Source: Oscillospiraceae bacterium (GTDB lineage: Bacteria > Bacillota > Clostridia > Oscillospirales > Oscillospiraceae). Taken from it: 64,000 nucleotides of DNA. Below are positions 46,859 to 53,400 of the stretch, piece after piece. Numbering within the stretch: the stretch's first letter is position 1; every line of letters begins with the position of its first letter. The position numbers and the translations under genes are program-made. The notes below the pieces were generated by a model. The model had not been told where the DNA came from. It saw only the letters and a program-made list of their open reading frames with translations, and made no database searches. The DNA lies in assembly GCA_017445385.1 (NCBI GenBank), contig JAFSUG010000030.1, forward strand, positions 1-64,000, read 5' to 3'.

Positions 46859-47373
46859 GAAATATCGCCCCCCCTGCGGAGGAGATGTCGGCGCAGCCGA
46901 CAGAGGGGGGAGAAAGCAATTGAGAAATGAAAATCCTCCCCAATATCGCCCCCTGCGGGGGAGATGTCGGCGCAGCCGACAGAGGGGGGAAAACCAATTG
47001 TCCATTGCACCGTCCGTAGGGGCGATCATTGATCGCCCGAAATGCACCGCACTATCAACCACGCCGTAGGGCATCATGCCCTTATGCCGCCGAAAAAAAC
47101 AACGTTCCATTATCAATTATCCATTGCACCGCCCGTAGGGGCGATCATTGATCGCCCGAAATGCACCGCACCATCAACCACGCCGTAGGGCGGCATGCCC
47201 CCATGCCGCCGAAAACGCATTCCCCTTGAGAATCGCACCCCCAAAAGGCGCCCCTTGAGAGGGGAGCTGTCGGCGCAGCCGACTGAGGGGTAGACAATAA
47301 TTGAGAATTGAAATTGCGCCCCAAATATCGCCCACTGCGGGGGAGCTGTCGGCGCAGCCGACAGAGGGGGGAA
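46859..47373. repeat. Repeat island 3: families A, B and C
   Basis: The 820-base gap 46596-47415 holds two promoters and this island. It contains A elements at 46859-46911, 46941-46991 and 47323-47373, C elements at 46995-47092 and 47121-47211, and a B element at 47247-47293. The B copy has A's inner stem, and the last A copy has B-like GAGCTGTC, so mixed forms exist. No protein-coding gene is visible. Confidence 0.85.
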
Positions 47374-47415: not shown

Positions 47416-47634
47416 TTATAATGCCTGGTCGTTCTCGCTCGGAACGTATCGTAATATATCAGCAACGTCGCATCGTAAAATACGGCATAGATCGTTAATT
47501 GTCGTTGTGCTGATTGGCTTATTTTTGCGCAGGCGGTCAATCGTGGAGCTGGAAATGCGATACCGGCTGATCAGTGTATACGTCGTTTCGCCGGATGCGC
47601 GCAGCGTTCCCCAAAACGGCTCATAAGAAATCAT
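47416..47634 (-). CDS. Small XRE/Cro-type HTH regulator
   Basis: 72-aa single-domain helix-turn-helix protein: TLISRYRISSSTIDRLRKNKPISTTTINDLCRILRC in pieces gives the two DNA-binding helices and the third contact helix of the Cro/XRE fold, plus the typical DVADILRYVP end. It is divergent from the C39-like/dockerin gene. A 22-bp palindrome sits inside that gene's promoter, about 62 bases upstream of this start, and is the likely binding site. Confidence 0.88.
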   Translation of the reverse strand: MISYEPFWGTLRASGETTYTLISRYRISSSTIDRLRKNKPISTTTINDLCRILRCDVADILRYVPSENDQAL

Positions 47635-47690: not shown

Positions 47691-47719
47691 TTGACTATAG
47701 TCGTTAAACCGACTATAAT
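47691..47719 (+). promoter_or_regulatory. Promoter with embedded operator palindrome
   Basis: TTGACT (47691-47696), 17-bp gap, TATAAT (47714-47719). A 22-bp palindrome with arms TATAGTCG and CGACTATA (47696-47717) spans the gap and both box edges. Two direct copies of ATAAACAGA (47661-47669, 47672-47680) lie nearby. Likely target of the divergent XRE protein. Confidence 0.78.
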
Positions 47720-47769: not shown

Positions 47770-50262
47770 ATGAAAAAACGAATTCTATCCATCGCCCTCT
47801 GCATATGCATGGCAATCTCGCTTTTCGCCGGATTGACGGTAACAGCGGAAGCAGCAAATTGGAGTTCTGATTGGAAATACTGGTCTCAAGGCGCTTCTGA
47901 CGATTCTCTTATGCGCAACTACGGATGCTGGGTTGTTGCACAAGCTCGTTTGCTTAAAAAAGCTGGTATTGAAACATCTTCTTCTTTTACGCCTGATGTC
48001 TATAAAGACTGGGAATATAGCAATGGTTACTTGGATTCAGGGTTTTATCAAACAAATGGTACTTATGCACCGATCGCATATGCAAAGCAAAAAGGAAATA
48101 ACGGATTAAGCTATGTTGGAACACTATCAGCAACCACATCAAATATTATTGCAAATGCAAACGCCGGGCATCTAATGATACTTAAAGTTAATATAGGCAA
48201 CGGAAAACATTATATATTTGTAGACAATGAATCTACAATTAGCAGTAATAAAGTTTACATCTATGAATCTTGGACTGACTATTCAGAAGTTGGGTCAAAG
48301 CCTGCCGATTGGACAAACTCGTATACATGGGTCGAAATTTATGTATATTCATATACATCCCACACCCATAGCTACAGCAGCAGCGTAACAACGCAGCCCG
48401 GCTGCACCACAACCGGCGTTCGCACTTACACCTGCTCCTGCGGTGCAAGCTATACGGAAACGATTGCCGCAACGGGTCACAAATGGGACAGCGGAGAGAT
48501 CGTGCAAAACGCCGGCTGTACCGACGAAGGAGTGAAGAAATTCACTTGCACTAATTGCGGCACAACAAGAACAGAAGCGATTAGTCCGATTGGTCACGAT
48601 CCCGTCACTGACTCTGCGGTGTCTGCAACATGCACGGAAGACGGATTAACTGAGGGTTCGCATTGCGCGAATTGTAATGCGATTTTAACCGCACAGCAGA
48701 TCGTTCCGGCGTTGGGTCATAACAACAAGGTGCAGGCAGTCAATCGAGATTGCGATCATGTATCGGTCGATTATGTTTGTACGCGCTGCGGTCAAACAAG
48801 CAATGAAACGCGTGACGATTATGTTCTGTCCGAGTGGAGCGAGGATTATCCTGAGAATGTGGATGAAAGCGCAATTGAATCAAAAACGCAGTATTCTTAT
48901 CGCGATAAGAATACAGAATATCAAGATGGCAATTCATCGCTCACTGGTTGGATGTATACCGGACAGTCAGAATCAATATACGGCAGCTGGAGTAATGCAG
49001 GTTGGACAAAAGACAGACCAACTGAATCAGACACATTACGCATTACGGATACGAAAACGGTGACTGACCAAGCAGCGCACGGCTATATCCTTTATTACTA
49101 CTATTATCCCGGCACATCGGCCAAATTTAGATATAAAGATTATGGCGGAAGTTCCGGCCGCTTCCAATTAGAGGTTGCTTCAATAAGTGATGTGACACCC
49201 AGCACAGAAGGCCCATGGTATGATGATGGAACAACATACAAGGGGTATTGGAATGGCACCGGGGTGGTATGGTTTCTTGATATTAATAATAGCGCACAAT
49301 ACCCTCAAAATGCTGTTACACATACCGAATGGTATTATCAGACACGCACAGAAACAACTAGGTATTATTTCGAAAAATGGTCCAATTATTCTGATTGGTC
49401 AGATATAGCATGTGAAGTAGCTGAAGGCAGGGAAATTCAAACACGAACTGTCTACCGTTACAGAATAACCCCTATCGGACACAACCTGACCCATGTTCCG
49501 GCGGTTGCTCCGAAAACTGTATCCGCCGGCAATGTTGAATATTGGCGCTGCTCCGCTTGCAACGGCTATTTCCTCGATGCGGACGCTACAACGGAAACTA
49601 CAGCGGAAAATGTAATTCTTCCGAAGCTTGATGATCCCACACCCATCAATCCCGACGCAACGCTCACGATCACGGGCGGCAAGGCGCGCGCAGGGCAGAC
49701 CGTCACGGTCGCGCTGCAGCTTTCCGAAAACCCCGGCATTGCCGGTATGCGCCTGAACGTTTCGTATGACAGCGCACTGACGCTCGAAAAAGCGGAAACG
49801 GGCGATACGCTGACCACCCTCGCGTTCACGAAACCCGGTAATCTCTCCGCAAATCCTGTTGCGCTCTTCTGGGACGGCATGGATGATGATACAACCTGCG
49901 GCGAAACCGGCACGATCCTCGTTCTGACCTTCCGCGTTGCGGAGGGAACGGAAGCCGGCGAATACCCGGTAACGGTTACGTATGTAAGCGACGAGGTTTA
50001 CAACGCCGCATTTGAAGACGTCACGCTCGCCGTGCAAAACGGCACAGTGACCGTCATCGACTACGTTACGGGCGATGCAAACGGAGACATGCTCGTGAAC
50101 GGCAAGGACGTTACAGTTCTCCGCCAGTACCTTGCCGGCGGCTACAACGTAACGATCGACGAGCATGCAGCCGACGCCAATCACGACGGCAAGGCAAACG
50201 GCAAAGACGTTACGATGCTTCGCCAGTACCTTGCCGGCGGATATGGCATAGTCCTCGACTGA
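47770..50262 (+). CDS. Secreted C39-like peptidase domain + Cys/His modules + cohesin + dockerin
   Basis: 830 aa. Signal peptide (1-29). Papain-like C39-type domain (about 30-200) with Cys53 in NYGCWVVAQARLL and a His in GNGKHYIFVDN. Three Cys/His modules follow (about 200-330; pattern CxxxGxxxYTCSCG...GH). The next stretch (about 330-560) is Tyr/Trp-rich and unrecognised. Then come a cohesin-like beta domain (about 635-760) and a C-terminal type I dockerin (about 770-830) with two Ca-binding repeats, GDANGDMLVNGKDVTVLRQYL and ADANHDGKANGKDVTMLRQYL (in pieces). The DNA up to about 49640 is visibly more AT-rich than the cohesin-dockerin part, so the gene looks chimeric. The cargo or partner is unknown. 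Confidence 0.85.
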   Translation: MKKRILSIALCICMAISLFAGLTVTAEAANWSSDWKYWSQGASDDSLMRNYGCWVVAQARLLKKAGIETSSSFTPDVYKDWEYSNGYLDSGFYQTNGTYAPIAYAKQKGNNGLSYVGTLSATTSNIIANANAGHLMILKVNIGNGKHYIFVDNESTISSNKVYIYESWTDYSEVGSKPADWTNSYTWVEIYVYSYTSHTHSYSSSVTTQPGCTTTGVRTYTCSCGASYTETIAATGHKWDSGEIVQNAGCTDEGVKKFTCTNCGTTRTEAISPIGHDPVTDSAVSATCTEDGLTEGSHCANCNAILTAQQIVPALGHNNKVQAVNRDCDHVSVDYVCTRCGQTSNETRDDYVLSEWSEDYPENVDESAIESKTQYSYRDKNTEYQDGNSSLTGWMYTGQSESIYGSWSNAGWTKDRPTESDTLRITDTKTVTDQAAHGYILYYYYYPGTSAKFRYKDYGGSSGRFQLEVASISDVTPSTEGPWYDDGTTYKGYWNGTGVVWFLDINNSAQYPQNAVTHTEWYYQTRTETTRYYFEKWSNYSDWSDIACEVAEGREIQTRTVYRYRITPIGHNLTHVPAVAPKTVSAGNVEYWRCSACNGYFLDADATTETTAENVILPKLDDPTPINPDATLTITGGKARAGQTVTVALQLSENPGIAGMRLNVSYDSALTLEKAETGDTLTTLAFTKPGNLSANPVALFWDGMDDDTTCGETGTILVLTFRVAEGTEAGEYPVTVTYVSDEVYNAAFEDVTLAVQNGTVTVIDYVTGDANGDMLVNGKDVTVLRQYLAGGYNVTIDEHAADANHDGKANGKDVTMLRQYLAGGYGIVLD

Positions 50263-50264
50263 TT

Positions 50265-50293
50265 ATAAAGGGGCGGCAAACCGCCCCTTTATT
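50265..50293 (+). terminator. Terminator of the dockerin gene
   Basis: AAAGGGGCGG-caaa-CCGCCCCTTT, a perfect 10-bp stem, five bases after the stop. Confidence 0.85.
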
Positions 50294-50306
50294 TCATAAA
50301 AACTGC

Positions 50307-50335
50307 TTGAATCTTTCAAAACTTTCCTATATAAT
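50307..50335 (+). promoter_or_regulatory. Promoter of the two-cohesin gene
   Basis: TTGAAT (50307-50312), 17-bp gap, TATAAT (50330-50335). There is no palindrome like the one at 47696. Confidence 0.75.
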
Positions 50336-50375
50336 AAAATCGTGAAACCATATAAGCAACACAGGAGGATTGACC

Positions 50376-53060
50376 ATGACAAAACGTATCCTTTCTCTCT
50401 TGCTGTGCCTGTCCATGCTGCTGGCGCTTTCCGTCGGCGCATTTGCGGCAAACGCACCGCAGCTTACCGTCGCAGGCGAAACGGCGGAAGCGGGGGAGCA
50501 GGCGACTGTATCGCTGAATCTTTCGGGCAATACCGGTATTGCCGGCATGCGCCTCTCTGTCGCATACGACAGCGCATTGACGCTTGATAGCATTGCTGGG
50601 GGCGAAGCACTGGCGAGCCTGGAGCTCACGCAGCCGGGCAAGTTGACGGCAAACCCGATCAATCTGTTTTGGGACGGTCTGGAATCCGATACCTCGAACG
50701 GCACAGTCGCGGTGCTGACCTTCACGATCAGCGAAACGGCGCAGCCGGGCGATTATCCCGTTACCGTTTCCTATGTGGCGGGCGAAGTCTATGACGGCAG
50801 CCTCAACGACGTTGCGCTGGATGTTGTAAACGGCAGCGTTACCGTTCCTGCGCCGCACGTGCATAGCTATACAGCCTCCGTCACAACTGCGGCGACTTGC
50901 GAAACCGCCGGCGTCATGACCTATACCTGCTCCTGCGGCGACAGCTATACCGAGCCGATCGCAGCGCTCGGCCATGATTGGGACGAAGGCGTCGTCACCA
51001 AGCAGCCGACGAAGACCGAGCAGGGCGAAATGACCTATACCTGCAAACGCGACGCAACGCACACGAAAACCGAGCCGATCGCAACGCTTCCGCTTGAGCC
51101 GGCGCTGACCGTTACGGGCGGCACGGCGAAGCCGGGCGAAGACGTTACGGTTACGCTTTCGCTTGAGGAGAACCCCGGCATTCTCGGCGCGCGCTTCTCC
51201 GTTGCTTACGACAGCGCGCTTACGCTGAAGAGCGTCGCAACGGGTAGCGCCTTTGCAACGCTGAACTTCACCCAGCCGGGCGATCTGACGGCAAACCCCG
51301 TCAACCTCCTCTGGGACGGACAGGACGCGGATACCACCAACGGCGCAATCGCGGTGCTGACCTTCACCGTCAGCGAAACTGCGGAAGCGGGTGCCTATCC
51401 CGTAACCGTTACCTACCTTGCCGACGACGTGTTCGGCGCGAACTACGCAAACGTCGCGGTTGCGATCACGGACGGCGAAGTCACGGTTGAAAAGCCGGTG
51501 GAGATCAAGAACGGCTTGTACTTTGAAAACGGCGCTTACTACTACTACGTAGACGGCAAGCTTGCCCGACCGGGTCTGATCCTGCTGGACGGCTACTATT
51601 ACTACATCAAGTCCGACTGCACTGCAGTTACCAATATTACGCGAACCGTTGATGAAAACCATACGAACGGCTTGCTGCCGCCGGGCGAGTATACATTCGG
51701 CGAAGACGGCAAGATGATCGTCGTTCTGAAAAACGGCGTCTTCTATGAAGACGGCGCGTATTACTACTATTACGAAGATGAGCGCACGGCAGCCGGCCTC
51801 GTCGAGGTGGACGGCGACTACTACTTCATCCAGGAAGACTGCACCGCGATCCTCAATACGACTGTTGCGATCACTTCCGCAAACAGCAATGGACTTCTGC
51901 CTGCCGGCAGCTACACCTTCGGTGAAGACGGCAAAATGGTCACCGTGAAGAACGGCATCTTCCTTGAAAACGGTACGCTTTACTACTACGTGAACAACGC
52001 GAGAAAGCATGCCGGCCTGATCAAGATCGGCGATGACTACTATTACGCCAAGACCGGCGGCGTTATTGATACGAATACAACCCGTAATATCGATATCAAC
52101 CATACCAACGGCCTTCTGCCTGTCGGCTCCTACCAAATCGGCGCGGACGGCAAGCTCATCGTTATCAAGAACGGCATCTTCTATGAAAACGGCACGTATT
52201 ACTATTATCAGAACGATGCGAAGAAGCATGCCGGCCTGTTCCTGTATTACGATGGCTATTACTACTACGCAAAGACGGGCGGCGTCCTCGTCACCAACGA
52301 AACGCGCTACGTTGACGCGCAGCATAGCAACGGCTATCCCTATGGCAACTACACCTTCGGTGCGGACGGCAAAGCAGCCGTCAAGCACGGCATCGAGGCG
52401 GAAGACGGCGGCTATTACTACTATGTAAACGGCAAGCGCGTCCATGCCGGTCTGATCAAGCTCGGCGACTATTATTACTATGTCAGAACGGGCGGCGAGG
52501 TCGTAACCTCGATCAAGCGCGTTGTTGATGACCGCCATAGCAACGGCTACCAGGCAGGTACCTACATCTTCGATGCGCAGGGCAGAGCGCCTGAAAAGAA
52601 CGGCATCATCTATGAAAACGGCGCGTATTACTACTATGTCCATGGCGCGATGCTCCATGCCGGCCTCGTATCGGTCGATGGTGATTACTATTACATTAAG
52701 TCCGATTGCTCCGCCGCAACGAATACAACGCGCTACGTCGACGTCAACCATAACAACGGCTTGCTGCCTGCCGGCAACTATACCTTCGGACCGGACGGCA
52801 AGATGCAGCCGCCGAAAAATGGCGTCTACTTTGAAGACGGCGTGTATTACTACTATGTAAATAACGCGAAAACGCATCCCGGCCTTGTCGTGTTTGAGGG
52901 ACACTATTATTACTTCAAATCCGATAATACCGCGGTCGTGTCCACTACGCGCTCGATCGACGAACGCCACGCAAACGGCTTGCTGCCCGCAGGAACGTAT
53001 ACGTTCAACGAGTATGCGCAAATCGTCGATACAAACGGCGACCCGCTGGTTGCTGAATAA
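50376..53060 (+). CDS. Secreted two-cohesin protein with seven Tyr-rich repeats
   Basis: 894 aa. Signal peptide (1-24), cohesin-like domain 1 (about 28-155), a Cys/His module (about 160-225; TYTCSCGDSYTEPIAALGH, in pieces), cohesin-like domain 2 (about 240-370), then seven tandem repeats of about 73 residues (378-893). Each repeat follows the pattern KNGxxxENGxYYYY, then xHAGL, then DxYYYxKT/SD, then TRxVDxxHxNGLLPAGxYTFGxDGK. The repeats resemble wall- or glucan-binding tandem modules in rhythm but match no family I can name. ATG 50376 follows CAGGAGG. The cohesins are close to the one in the upstream dockerin protein, so the two may assemble outside the cell. Confidence 0.85.
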   Translation: MTKRILSLLLCLSMLLALSVGAFAANAPQLTVAGETAEAGEQATVSLNLSGNTGIAGMRLSVAYDSALTLDSIAGGEALASLELTQPGKLTANPINLFWDGLESDTSNGTVAVLTFTISETAQPGDYPVTVSYVAGEVYDGSLNDVALDVVNGSVTVPAPHVHSYTASVTTAATCETAGVMTYTCSCGDSYTEPIAALGHDWDEGVVTKQPTKTEQGEMTYTCKRDATHTKTEPIATLPLEPALTVTGGTAKPGEDVTVTLSLEENPGILGARFSVAYDSALTLKSVATGSAFATLNFTQPGDLTANPVNLLWDGQDADTTNGAIAVLTFTVSETAEAGAYPVTVTYLADDVFGANYANVAVAITDGEVTVEKPVEIKNGLYFENGAYYYYVDGKLARPGLILLDGYYYYIKSDCTAVTNITRTVDENHTNGLLPPGEYTFGEDGKMIVVLKNGVFYEDGAYYYYYEDERTAAGLVEVDGDYYFIQEDCTAILNTTVAITSANSNGLLPAGSYTFGEDGKMVTVKNGIFLENGTLYYYVNNARKHAGLIKIGDDYYYAKTGGVIDTNTTRNIDINHTNGLLPVGSYQIGADGKLIVIKNGIFYENGTYYYYQNDAKKHAGLFLYYDGYYYYAKTGGVLVTNETRYVDAQHSNGYPYGNYTFGADGKAAVKHGIEAEDGGYYYYVNGKRVHAGLIKLGDYYYYVRTGGEVVTSIKRVVDDRHSNGYQAGTYIFDAQGRAPEKNGIIYENGAYYYYVHGAMLHAGLVSVDGDYYYIKSDCSAATNTTRYVDVNHNNGLLPAGNYTFGPDGKMQPPKNGVYFEDGVYYYYVNNAKTHPGLVVFEGHYYYFKSDNTAVVSTTRSIDERHANGLLPAGTYTFNEYAQIVDTNGDPLVAE

Positions 53061-53063
53061 TTC

Positions 53064-53104
53064 AAAAAAAGATCCGTTGAGCATCGCTCAACGGATCTTT
53101 TTTT
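53064..53104 (+). terminator. Terminator of the two-cohesin gene
   Basis: AAAAAAAGATCCGTTGAGC-atc and its perfect complement ending in seven T; the T run merges with the first unit of the tandem array. Confidence 0.95.
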
Positions 53105-53400
53105 GCCCTGCATCACATATATCGCCCCCTACGGGGAGATGTCGGCTTTTGCCCTGCATCGCATATATCGCCCCCTGCGGGGGAGATGTCGGCTTTTGCC
53201 CTGCATCACATATATCGTCCCCTGCGGGGGAGATGTCGGCTTTTGCCCTGCATCGCATATATCGCCCCCTGCGGGAGAGATGTCGGCTTTTGCCCTGCAT
53301 CACATATATCGCCCCCTGCGGGGGAGATGTCGGCTTTTGCCCTGCATCACATATATCGCCCCCTGCGGGGGAGATGTCGGCGCAGCCGACAGAGGGGGGA
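53101..53400. repeat. Tandem array of six 47-bp units
   Basis: Units start at 53101 (46 bp, one base short), 53147, 53194, 53241, 53288 and 53335. Each is TTTTGCCCTGCATCACAT followed by the first half of a family A element (to GATGTCGGC). Only the last unit continues into the full A element, to 53400. Units differ by single bases (CATCACAT or CATCGCAT). It looks like slippage amplification of one truncated A element. Confidence 0.93.

Follow-up and report, generated by a model that had tools for sequence, protein, structure and literature searches.

Pairing of cohesins with dockerins is usually taken as a sign of polysaccharide digestion. The window analyzed here is a stretch of 64,000 nucleotides from an Oscillospiraceae bacterium (GenBank assembly GCA_017445385.1, contig JAFSUG010000030.1, positions 1 to 64,000 of the forward strand), and it carries two adjacent genes for cohesin-bearing proteins, termed protein 1 and protein 2. 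An original prediction, made from the letters of the window alone, described them as a non-cellulosomal surface assembly whose cargo resembles a cysteine protease rather than a cellulase. The two genes and their parts are listed below; the signal peptides of both proteins were judged by eye.

47770 to 50262, forward strand: gene of protein 1, 830 amino acids, with signal peptide, C39-like domain, Cys-rich repeats, WSxWS-type region, cohesin and dockerin
47857 to 48369, forward strand: putative C39-like cysteine peptidase domain, assigned via relatives, with no direct Pfam match
48370 to 48804, forward strand: Cys-rich repeats (CxCG / CxxCG), four motifs, from sequence inspection
49660 to 50052, forward strand: cohesin of protein 1, from Pfam, an AlphaFold2 model and structure matches
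50071 to 50232, forward strand: type I dockerin of protein 1 with a symmetric GK/GK recognition pair, from Pfam and loop parsing
50376 to 53060, forward strand: gene of protein 2, 894 amino acids, with signal peptide, cohesin, Cys-rich spacer, cohesin and seven repeats
50460 to 50846, forward strand: cohesin 1 of protein 2, Pfam Cohesin above cut-off
51102 to 51488, forward strand: cohesin 2 of protein 2, Pfam Cohesin above cut-off
51504 to 53057, forward strand: seven choline-binding-like repeats, probably binding wall or glycan, from sequence repeats

Domains of the two proteins

In protein 1, residues 631-761 match Pfam Cohesin (E 8.2e-8) and residues 768-821 match Pfam Dockerin_1 (E 5.2e-11), both passing the curated cut-offs, and the cohesin is preceded by a Trp- and Ser-rich region. 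The dockerin has the two F-hand calcium loops and following helices of type I dockerins (PF00404). One cohesin and one dockerin on a single chain, as had been predicted, is the layout of a monovalent adaptor scaffoldin. Protein 2, the start of which is best placed at the ATG at 50376, matches Pfam Cohesin in two stretches (E 6e-20). The curated PF00963 cut-off is passed by all three window cohesins and by one on contig 18 of the same genome. The cohesin of protein 1 shares 56% and 54% identity with the two cohesins of protein 2, in agreement with the original view that they are clearly related.

Structure prediction, which had been proposed as a check of the fold, supported the assignment. An AlphaFold2 model of the cohesin-dockerin part of protein 1 reached a pLDDT of 85 and a pTM of 0.73, and the cohesin of this protein, the one that was modeled, adopts the nine-strand jelly-roll typical of cohesins. 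The matches listed for the model all contain cohesins; the best was the non-cellulosomal archaeal cohesin 2xdh (Z 17.6), and the value against type I cohesins of C. thermocellum was Z 17.5. Because the matches listed are cohesin-containing and score up to Z 17.6, the suspicion that the beta domains might lack a cohesin fold falls away. It is likewise highly implausible that these domains are mere Ig-like spacers accompanied by a stray calcium-binding pair. In protein 2, Pfam did return weak matches below cut-off to other beta domains; against this stand the curated cut-offs passed, the Z of 17.6 to solved cohesins and a cohesin-dockerin joint that recurs among relatives.

The seven repeats foreseen in protein 2 start at residues 377, 452, 525, 597, 670, 741 and 814, with a spacing of 71-75 amino acids. 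The same YYYY repeats occur on contig 29 of the genome (L112:1137-5864, G000:C29) in a 1575-amino-acid surface protein with NAGPA and Choline_bind_3. Binding of the protein 2 repeats to wall or glycan is supported, since they adjoin Choline_bind_3 in that protein. Protein 2 lacks a dockerin and therefore would not extend a chain; a platform with two docking sites is the more likely role. The CxCG/CxxCG Cys-rich repeats, common to many such surface proteins (48370-48804 and 50856-51095 in the window; L026, L029, L045 and L145 elsewhere), are possibly small metal-binding or disulfide modules; those of the window proteins match no Pfam family above cut-off.

The N-terminal domain of protein 1 returned nothing usable from Pfam, NCBIfam or PDB sequence searches, its single-sequence fold was unusable (pLDDT 35), and none was found in the viral contigs and phage records in which it was sought. 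When 150 genomes of the family were searched at the protein level, the domain turned up in the bacterium's own genome and two others; a profile built from these three rows picked up relatives in 28 of 394 genomes from the order, its own included. Of 13 alignment rows, six match Peptidase_C39_2 (PF13529; best 7.6e-13) and the window domain itself does not. The predicted C39-like label thus appears correct by distant homology only, standing through the relatives and not through a direct match. Profile matches of the alignment in the PDB, namely the ComA C39 domain (E 0.054) and the putative C39-like peptidase 3erv (E 0.12), were discarded as too weak. Alignment with the relatives places the putative catalytic residues of protein 1 at Gln40, Cys53, His147 and Glu166, positions that were matched to Gln/Cys/His/Asp, which we take to be the catalytic set of the C39 family.

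The last of these positions raises the alternative of a pseudo-enzyme, or of an enzyme acting on peptidoglycan, in an array that would serve adhesion or wall turnover. Glu166 replaces the Asp found in most relatives, and the closest relative, L119 (47% identity to the window domain), has Asn there. Furthermore, LRR_5 domains and choline-binding-like repeats suggest adhesion, and elsewhere in the family a CHAP domain is joined to a cohesin-dockerin unit. However, protein 1 keeps Gln, Cys and His, and another cargo protein of the same genome is a Peptidase_C1 protein; we therefore consider this alternative doubtful.

The C39-like domain frequently travels with dockerins. Among 15 long C39-like proteins of the order, 13 carry a dockerin or its visible start, counting two recognized by eye only (G254 and G554), one weak match (G456, E 0.013) and six at a locus end that are only partly visible. 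The long proteins without a dockerin belong to G078 and G302, and none of the short C39-like proteins examined has one. In G156, which belongs to another genus, a C39-like protein (L067) ends in a C-terminal cohesin-dockerin-cohesin arrangement. No paper on a dockerin combined with peptidase C39 was found in the literature covered, outside which most subscription journals lie.

Cohesins and dockerins in the genome and its relatives

The bacterium's own genome (G000; 1.51 Mb, 32 contigs, 95% complete) contains four cohesins and, in answer to the proposal that more dockerins be sought, seven dockerins in total by domain search. The fourth cohesin, on contig 18 (G000:C18, L024:7968-9032), is fused to S-layer homology (SLH) repeats (SLH E 6.7e-24) and is thus a surface-anchoring cohesin of the kind known from cellulosomes; the same design occurs in the genomes G002 and G003. 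One PF04230 protein (pyruvyl transferase for wall polymer) is also encoded, and its use as proof of SLH anchoring was dropped, since the family matches 8 of 14 controls too. Cargo was recognized in four of the seven dockerin frames: the C39-like domain, Peptidase_C1 with Lectin_like, and LRR_5 twice. The combination of Peptidase_C1, Lectin_like and Dockerin has a counterpart in the sister species G001 (L091). Two putatively secreted proteins, 116 and 114 amino acids long (L027:12052-12402 and L028:8748-9092), are little more than a dockerin, and could possibly be chain caps or competitors. The seventh frame ends at a contig end and is visible in part. Most dockerins of the genome lie on chains without a cohesin.

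This inventory departs from that of a cellulosome. A scan of the seven dockerin frames, one of them incomplete at the contig end, found no glycoside hydrolase (GH) domain, and the genome accordingly shows none of the dockerin-borne cellulases or plant-wall glycoside hydrolases of cellulosomes. Its largest cohesin protein has two cohesins and, by Pfam, no carbohydrate-binding module, short of a multi-cohesin primary scaffoldin with a cellulose-binding module. GH9 was absent from all five genomes of the genus, with the positive control detected; GH48 was likewise found in none of the five, the positive control was silent, and this absence was not used. The predicted non-cellulosomal surface assembly is consequently supported by the SLH-anchored cohesin and the lack of GH9. 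Dockerin-borne carbohydrate-active enzymes (CAZymes), as expected of a mucinolysome, were also missing from the genome's own dockerin frames, and one GH95 enzyme was found in G001. The claim that carbohydrate enzymes are lacking is consequently borne out by the dockerin proteins seen in the bacterium's own genome and fails in G001 (GH95, CE2/GDSL). Similarly, cysteine protease cargo instead of cellulase agrees with the C39-like and Peptidase_C1 domains and the missing GH9, but the G001 enzymes speak against a purely proteolytic reading.

These enzymes bear on a second alternative, in which the genus would descend from mucinolysome- or cellulosome-like ancestors and the small genome would have kept the scaffold and a few non-CAZyme cargos. 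Beyond the GH95 enzyme and three CE2/GDSL esterases docked in G001, a protein with GH3, cohesin and dockerin exists in the family, and the Limousia mucinolysome is described in another gut lineage in the available part of its report (PMC12997984). Against such a reduction, seven dockerins and four cohesins have been kept, the papain-type cargo has the same architecture in G001, and the pairing of C39 with dockerin is widespread in the order. On balance, a reduced glycan-degrading system seems unlikely.

The tight joint between cohesin and dockerin in protein 1 recurs among relatives. Cohesins occur in four of the five genomes of the genus, and of 15 genus cohesin frames eight also have a dockerin, which in seven is joined directly. 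In a broader set of 44 cohesin frames, taken from loci selected for their strong match to cohesin, from the genus loci and from some loci fetched for their dockerins, 24 have a dockerin on the same chain; it follows the cohesin within 25 residues in 21, within 7 in 19 and after exactly 2 in 12. This set includes near-copies (G156/G216; L045/L046, from one genome), frames nested within a longer copy were removed from it, and L043, L044, L047-L049, L052 and L054 were outside the first frame set. Elsewhere in the family, such joined units have among their partners carboxypeptidase M14, CHAP, GH3 and Shr-like domains, and in G003 a transglutaminase-like domain. A family survey, less sensitive in that it recovered three of the four own cohesins, detected cohesins in 58 of 200 genomes, and dockerins were present in 31 of 60 relatives; the machinery is therefore widespread.

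Other arrangements were also encountered. L045:3328-7449 and L046 are proteins of a rabbit-gut Clostridia genome (the host taken from the isolate name) with cohesin-dockerin-cohesin and Cys-rich repeats; L045 additionally has fn3 domains, and its N-terminal part resembles a cysteine amidase by eye. At L068:2166-8906 (G156:C37), three adjacent cohesin genes encode a dockerin-M14-cohesin-dockerin protein, a cohesin-cohesin-dockerin protein and a single-cohesin protein.

Specificity in known type I dockerins depends in part on the residue pair that precedes the last loop aspartate. In the own genome this pair is GK in 10 of the 14 loops and fits xK in every one, and the GK/GK code of the protein 1 dockerin is that of most of the other dockerins, cargo included. 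MR or MK is the most frequent code in G001 (23 of 34 parsed loops), and AK in G003 (8 of 12 loops). In a cohesin tree, one clade (100/98) comprises the three cohesins of the window together with two adaptor cohesins of G003, and another (95/93) unites four anchor-type cohesins of three species: the SLH cohesins of the own genome and G003, a lipoprotein-like one of G003 and a membrane-type one of G001, the last two labels being judged by eye. Given these separate clades, adaptor and anchor cohesins probably diverged before the species did.

Such a split would also suit an ordered assembly that does not polymerize, in which the protein 1 dockerin would fit the SLH cohesin only, the cohesins of proteins 1 and 2 would take cargo only, and chains would stop after one step. 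In its favor, adaptor-type and anchor-type cohesins fall into two clades common to several species, and the adaptor cohesin ScaC of R. flavefaciens and its dockerin differ in partner, as far as the available parts of the sources describe (PMC3573020; PMC5301203). Conversely, the recognition pair of the protein 1 dockerin is that of the cargo dockerins, and no adaptor-specific dockerin class is visible in the genome. Ordered assembly thus merits real, if limited, credence.

A proposed cell-surface array and its counterparts

From the domains, the cohesin fold, the anchor, the genome inventory and the recurrence in relatives, we somewhat favor the reading that the two genes encode parts of a non-cellulosomal cohesin-dockerin array at the cell surface, with protein 1 as both enzyme and adaptor. 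In this array, protein 1 would be a catalytic monovalent adaptor, that is, a secreted C39-like cysteine hydrolase with a closely joined cohesin-dockerin unit, which would plug into one cohesin and present a new cohesin to another dockerin. Protein 2 would serve as a two-cohesin platform held to wall or glycan by its seven choline-binding-like repeats, and the SLH-cohesin (G000:C18) would tie the array to the cell by holding a dockerin protein at the surface. The sockets could be filled by the papain-family protease with its lectin-like domain, the leucine-rich proteins and the two dockerin-only proteins. The array would likely serve a gut bacterium to cleave or bind proteins at its surface, the cysteine hydrolases presumably acting on proteins or peptides.

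Chain growth would hinge on the dockerin of protein 1 binding its own cohesin in trans. Self-assembly is plausible, because this dockerin shares the GK/GK pair with most other dockerins of the genome and the authors of a study on Amy4 of Ruminococcus bromii state, in the part available, a potential for self-aggregation (PMC5814915). A bolder version of the array is a protease-dedicated, self-extending polymer, with chains of catalytic adaptors that would start from the S-layer cohesin, a near linker-free joint unable to close on itself, a single dockerin code for adaptors and cargo, dockerin-only caps, and C39-like cargo that recurs, unreported, across the order. We infer the inability to self-close from the steric constraint of so short a cohesin-dockerin joint, and the polymer as a whole is offered tentatively, as an improbable extension.

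Several observations weigh against the array as proposed. G004, of the same genus and 79% complete, has no cohesin, and the dockerins of the sister species G001 lie on a GH95 enzyme and three CE2/GDSL esterases. Deviating adaptor dockerin codes occur in G001 (L032, TK/TK) and G003 (L038, TR/VK; L039, NN/NN), and adaptors may therefore be separate classes there. Specificity also need not follow cohesin sequence type, according to the available part of one report (PMC3413522). In addition, the C39-like domain lacks a direct family match and has Glu, where most relatives have Asp, as its third catalytic residue.

Partial counterparts have been described, in each case as given in the available portions of the sources cited. 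A close parallel to the array, and one likewise unlike conventional cellulosomes, is that of Paenibacillus guangzhouensis, with many adaptors of one dockerin and one cohesin, often with an N-terminal enzyme, and with SLH-anchored cohesins (PMC11557425). Its enzymes are glycoside hydrolases and nearly all its dockerins are on cohesin proteins (PMC11557425), whereas the present genome of 1.5 Mb has protease and leucine-rich repeat (LRR) cargo and most dockerins on chains without a cohesin. Amy4 of the R. bromii amylosome also combines enzyme, cohesin and dockerin on one chain; it differs in being an amylase, in its sortase-anchored scaffoldins and in its measured binding (PMC5814915). R. flavefaciens has adaptors of a single cohesin and a single dockerin, as well as papain-like, transglutaminase and LRR cargo, but within a full cellulosome, and the peptidase solved there belongs to NlpC/P60 and carries an X-dockerin instead of being C39-like and cohesin-bearing (PMC4081043; PMC3573020; PMC2930009; PMC5301203).

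In another instance, a ScaO-like protein of Acetivibrio mesophilus carries a C-terminal Coh1-Doc1 unit and a peptidase-like domain on the same chain; this peptidase is of the S8 type and the organism is a cellulosome producer (PMC11557425). The Limousia mucinolysome is likewise a non-cellulose cohesin-dockerin complex of a gut bacterium with some dockerin-borne peptidases, although mucin-degrading CAZymes dominate, the scaffoldins are enzyme-free and the anchor is sortase-type (PMC12997984). Glycosidases of Clostridium perfringens are reported to bear single cohesins and to pair in a pairwise, non-cellulosomal manner; these are glycoside hydrolases, and the portion covered describes no SLH anchor (PMC12997984).

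Enzyme-bearing adaptors with SLH anchors, peptidase and LRR cargo, and a non-cellulosic gut array are thus already known. Non-cellulosomal cohesins were reportedly also the topic of Peer et al. in 2009. New, as far as the literature was searched, are the C39-type cysteine-hydrolase cargo, the tight joint that is almost always kept, and a system in a small genome in which no dockerin-borne glycosidases were seen. If the array is as proposed, a bacterium with a small genome would devote cohesin-dockerin pairing chiefly to cargo of the cysteine-hydrolase and LRR kinds, and one subunit would be enzyme and scaffold at once. The system is compact (four cohesins, seven dockerins), so that pairwise binding would allow a complete test of self-extension. 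It also draws attention to a class of C39-like enzymes that travels with dockerins, as in 13 of 15 long proteins.

Regulation and flanking DNA

The DNA around the two genes contains the following candidate regulatory features.

47416 to 47634, reverse strand: Cro/C1-type helix-turn-helix protein (HTH_26), 72 amino acids, divergent from protein 1, candidate regulator
47691 to 47719, forward strand: promoter-like TTGACT-17-TATAAT before protein 1, consensus match
47696 to 47717, no strand assigned: palindrome TATAGTCG-N6-CGACTATA overlapping the protein 1 -10, sole perfect copy in the genome
50267 to 50290, forward strand: intergenic GC-rich hairpin AAAGGGGCGG-CAAA-CCGCCCCTTT, terminator-like, read by eye and absent from the scanner list
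50307 to 50335, forward strand: promoter-like TTGAAT-17-TATAAT before protein 2, consensus match

Because a promoter-like site precedes each of the two genes and the hairpin lies between them, the pair probably forms no operon. The promoter-like sites are weak as evidence, since 10 were found in the region and 7.8 expected. Protein 1 is probably under local control, with the divergent helix-turn-helix protein as the candidate regulator. The idea of a shared operator was dropped, as the genome holds no second mismatch-free copy of the palindrome that precedes protein 1; at up to 3 mismatches, the reversed control pattern gave 8 forward and 8 reverse matches, and such weak matches are therefore meaningless.

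Repeats lie on both sides of the pair. Just after protein 2, at 53101-53381, a 47-bp unit is repeated six times. Its translation (IAPCGGDV...ADRGGN) resembles the stretch after the signal peptide of L025:10027-11709 and L029:6827-10381, two LRR-dockerin proteins of the same genome, and gives the impression that a repeat from between genes was taken up, in frame, into coding sequence. On the other side, a 119-bp unit present in 1.9 copies (46995-47215) lies in the repeat-rich stretch between the nusG/rplK region, named by eye, and protein 1.

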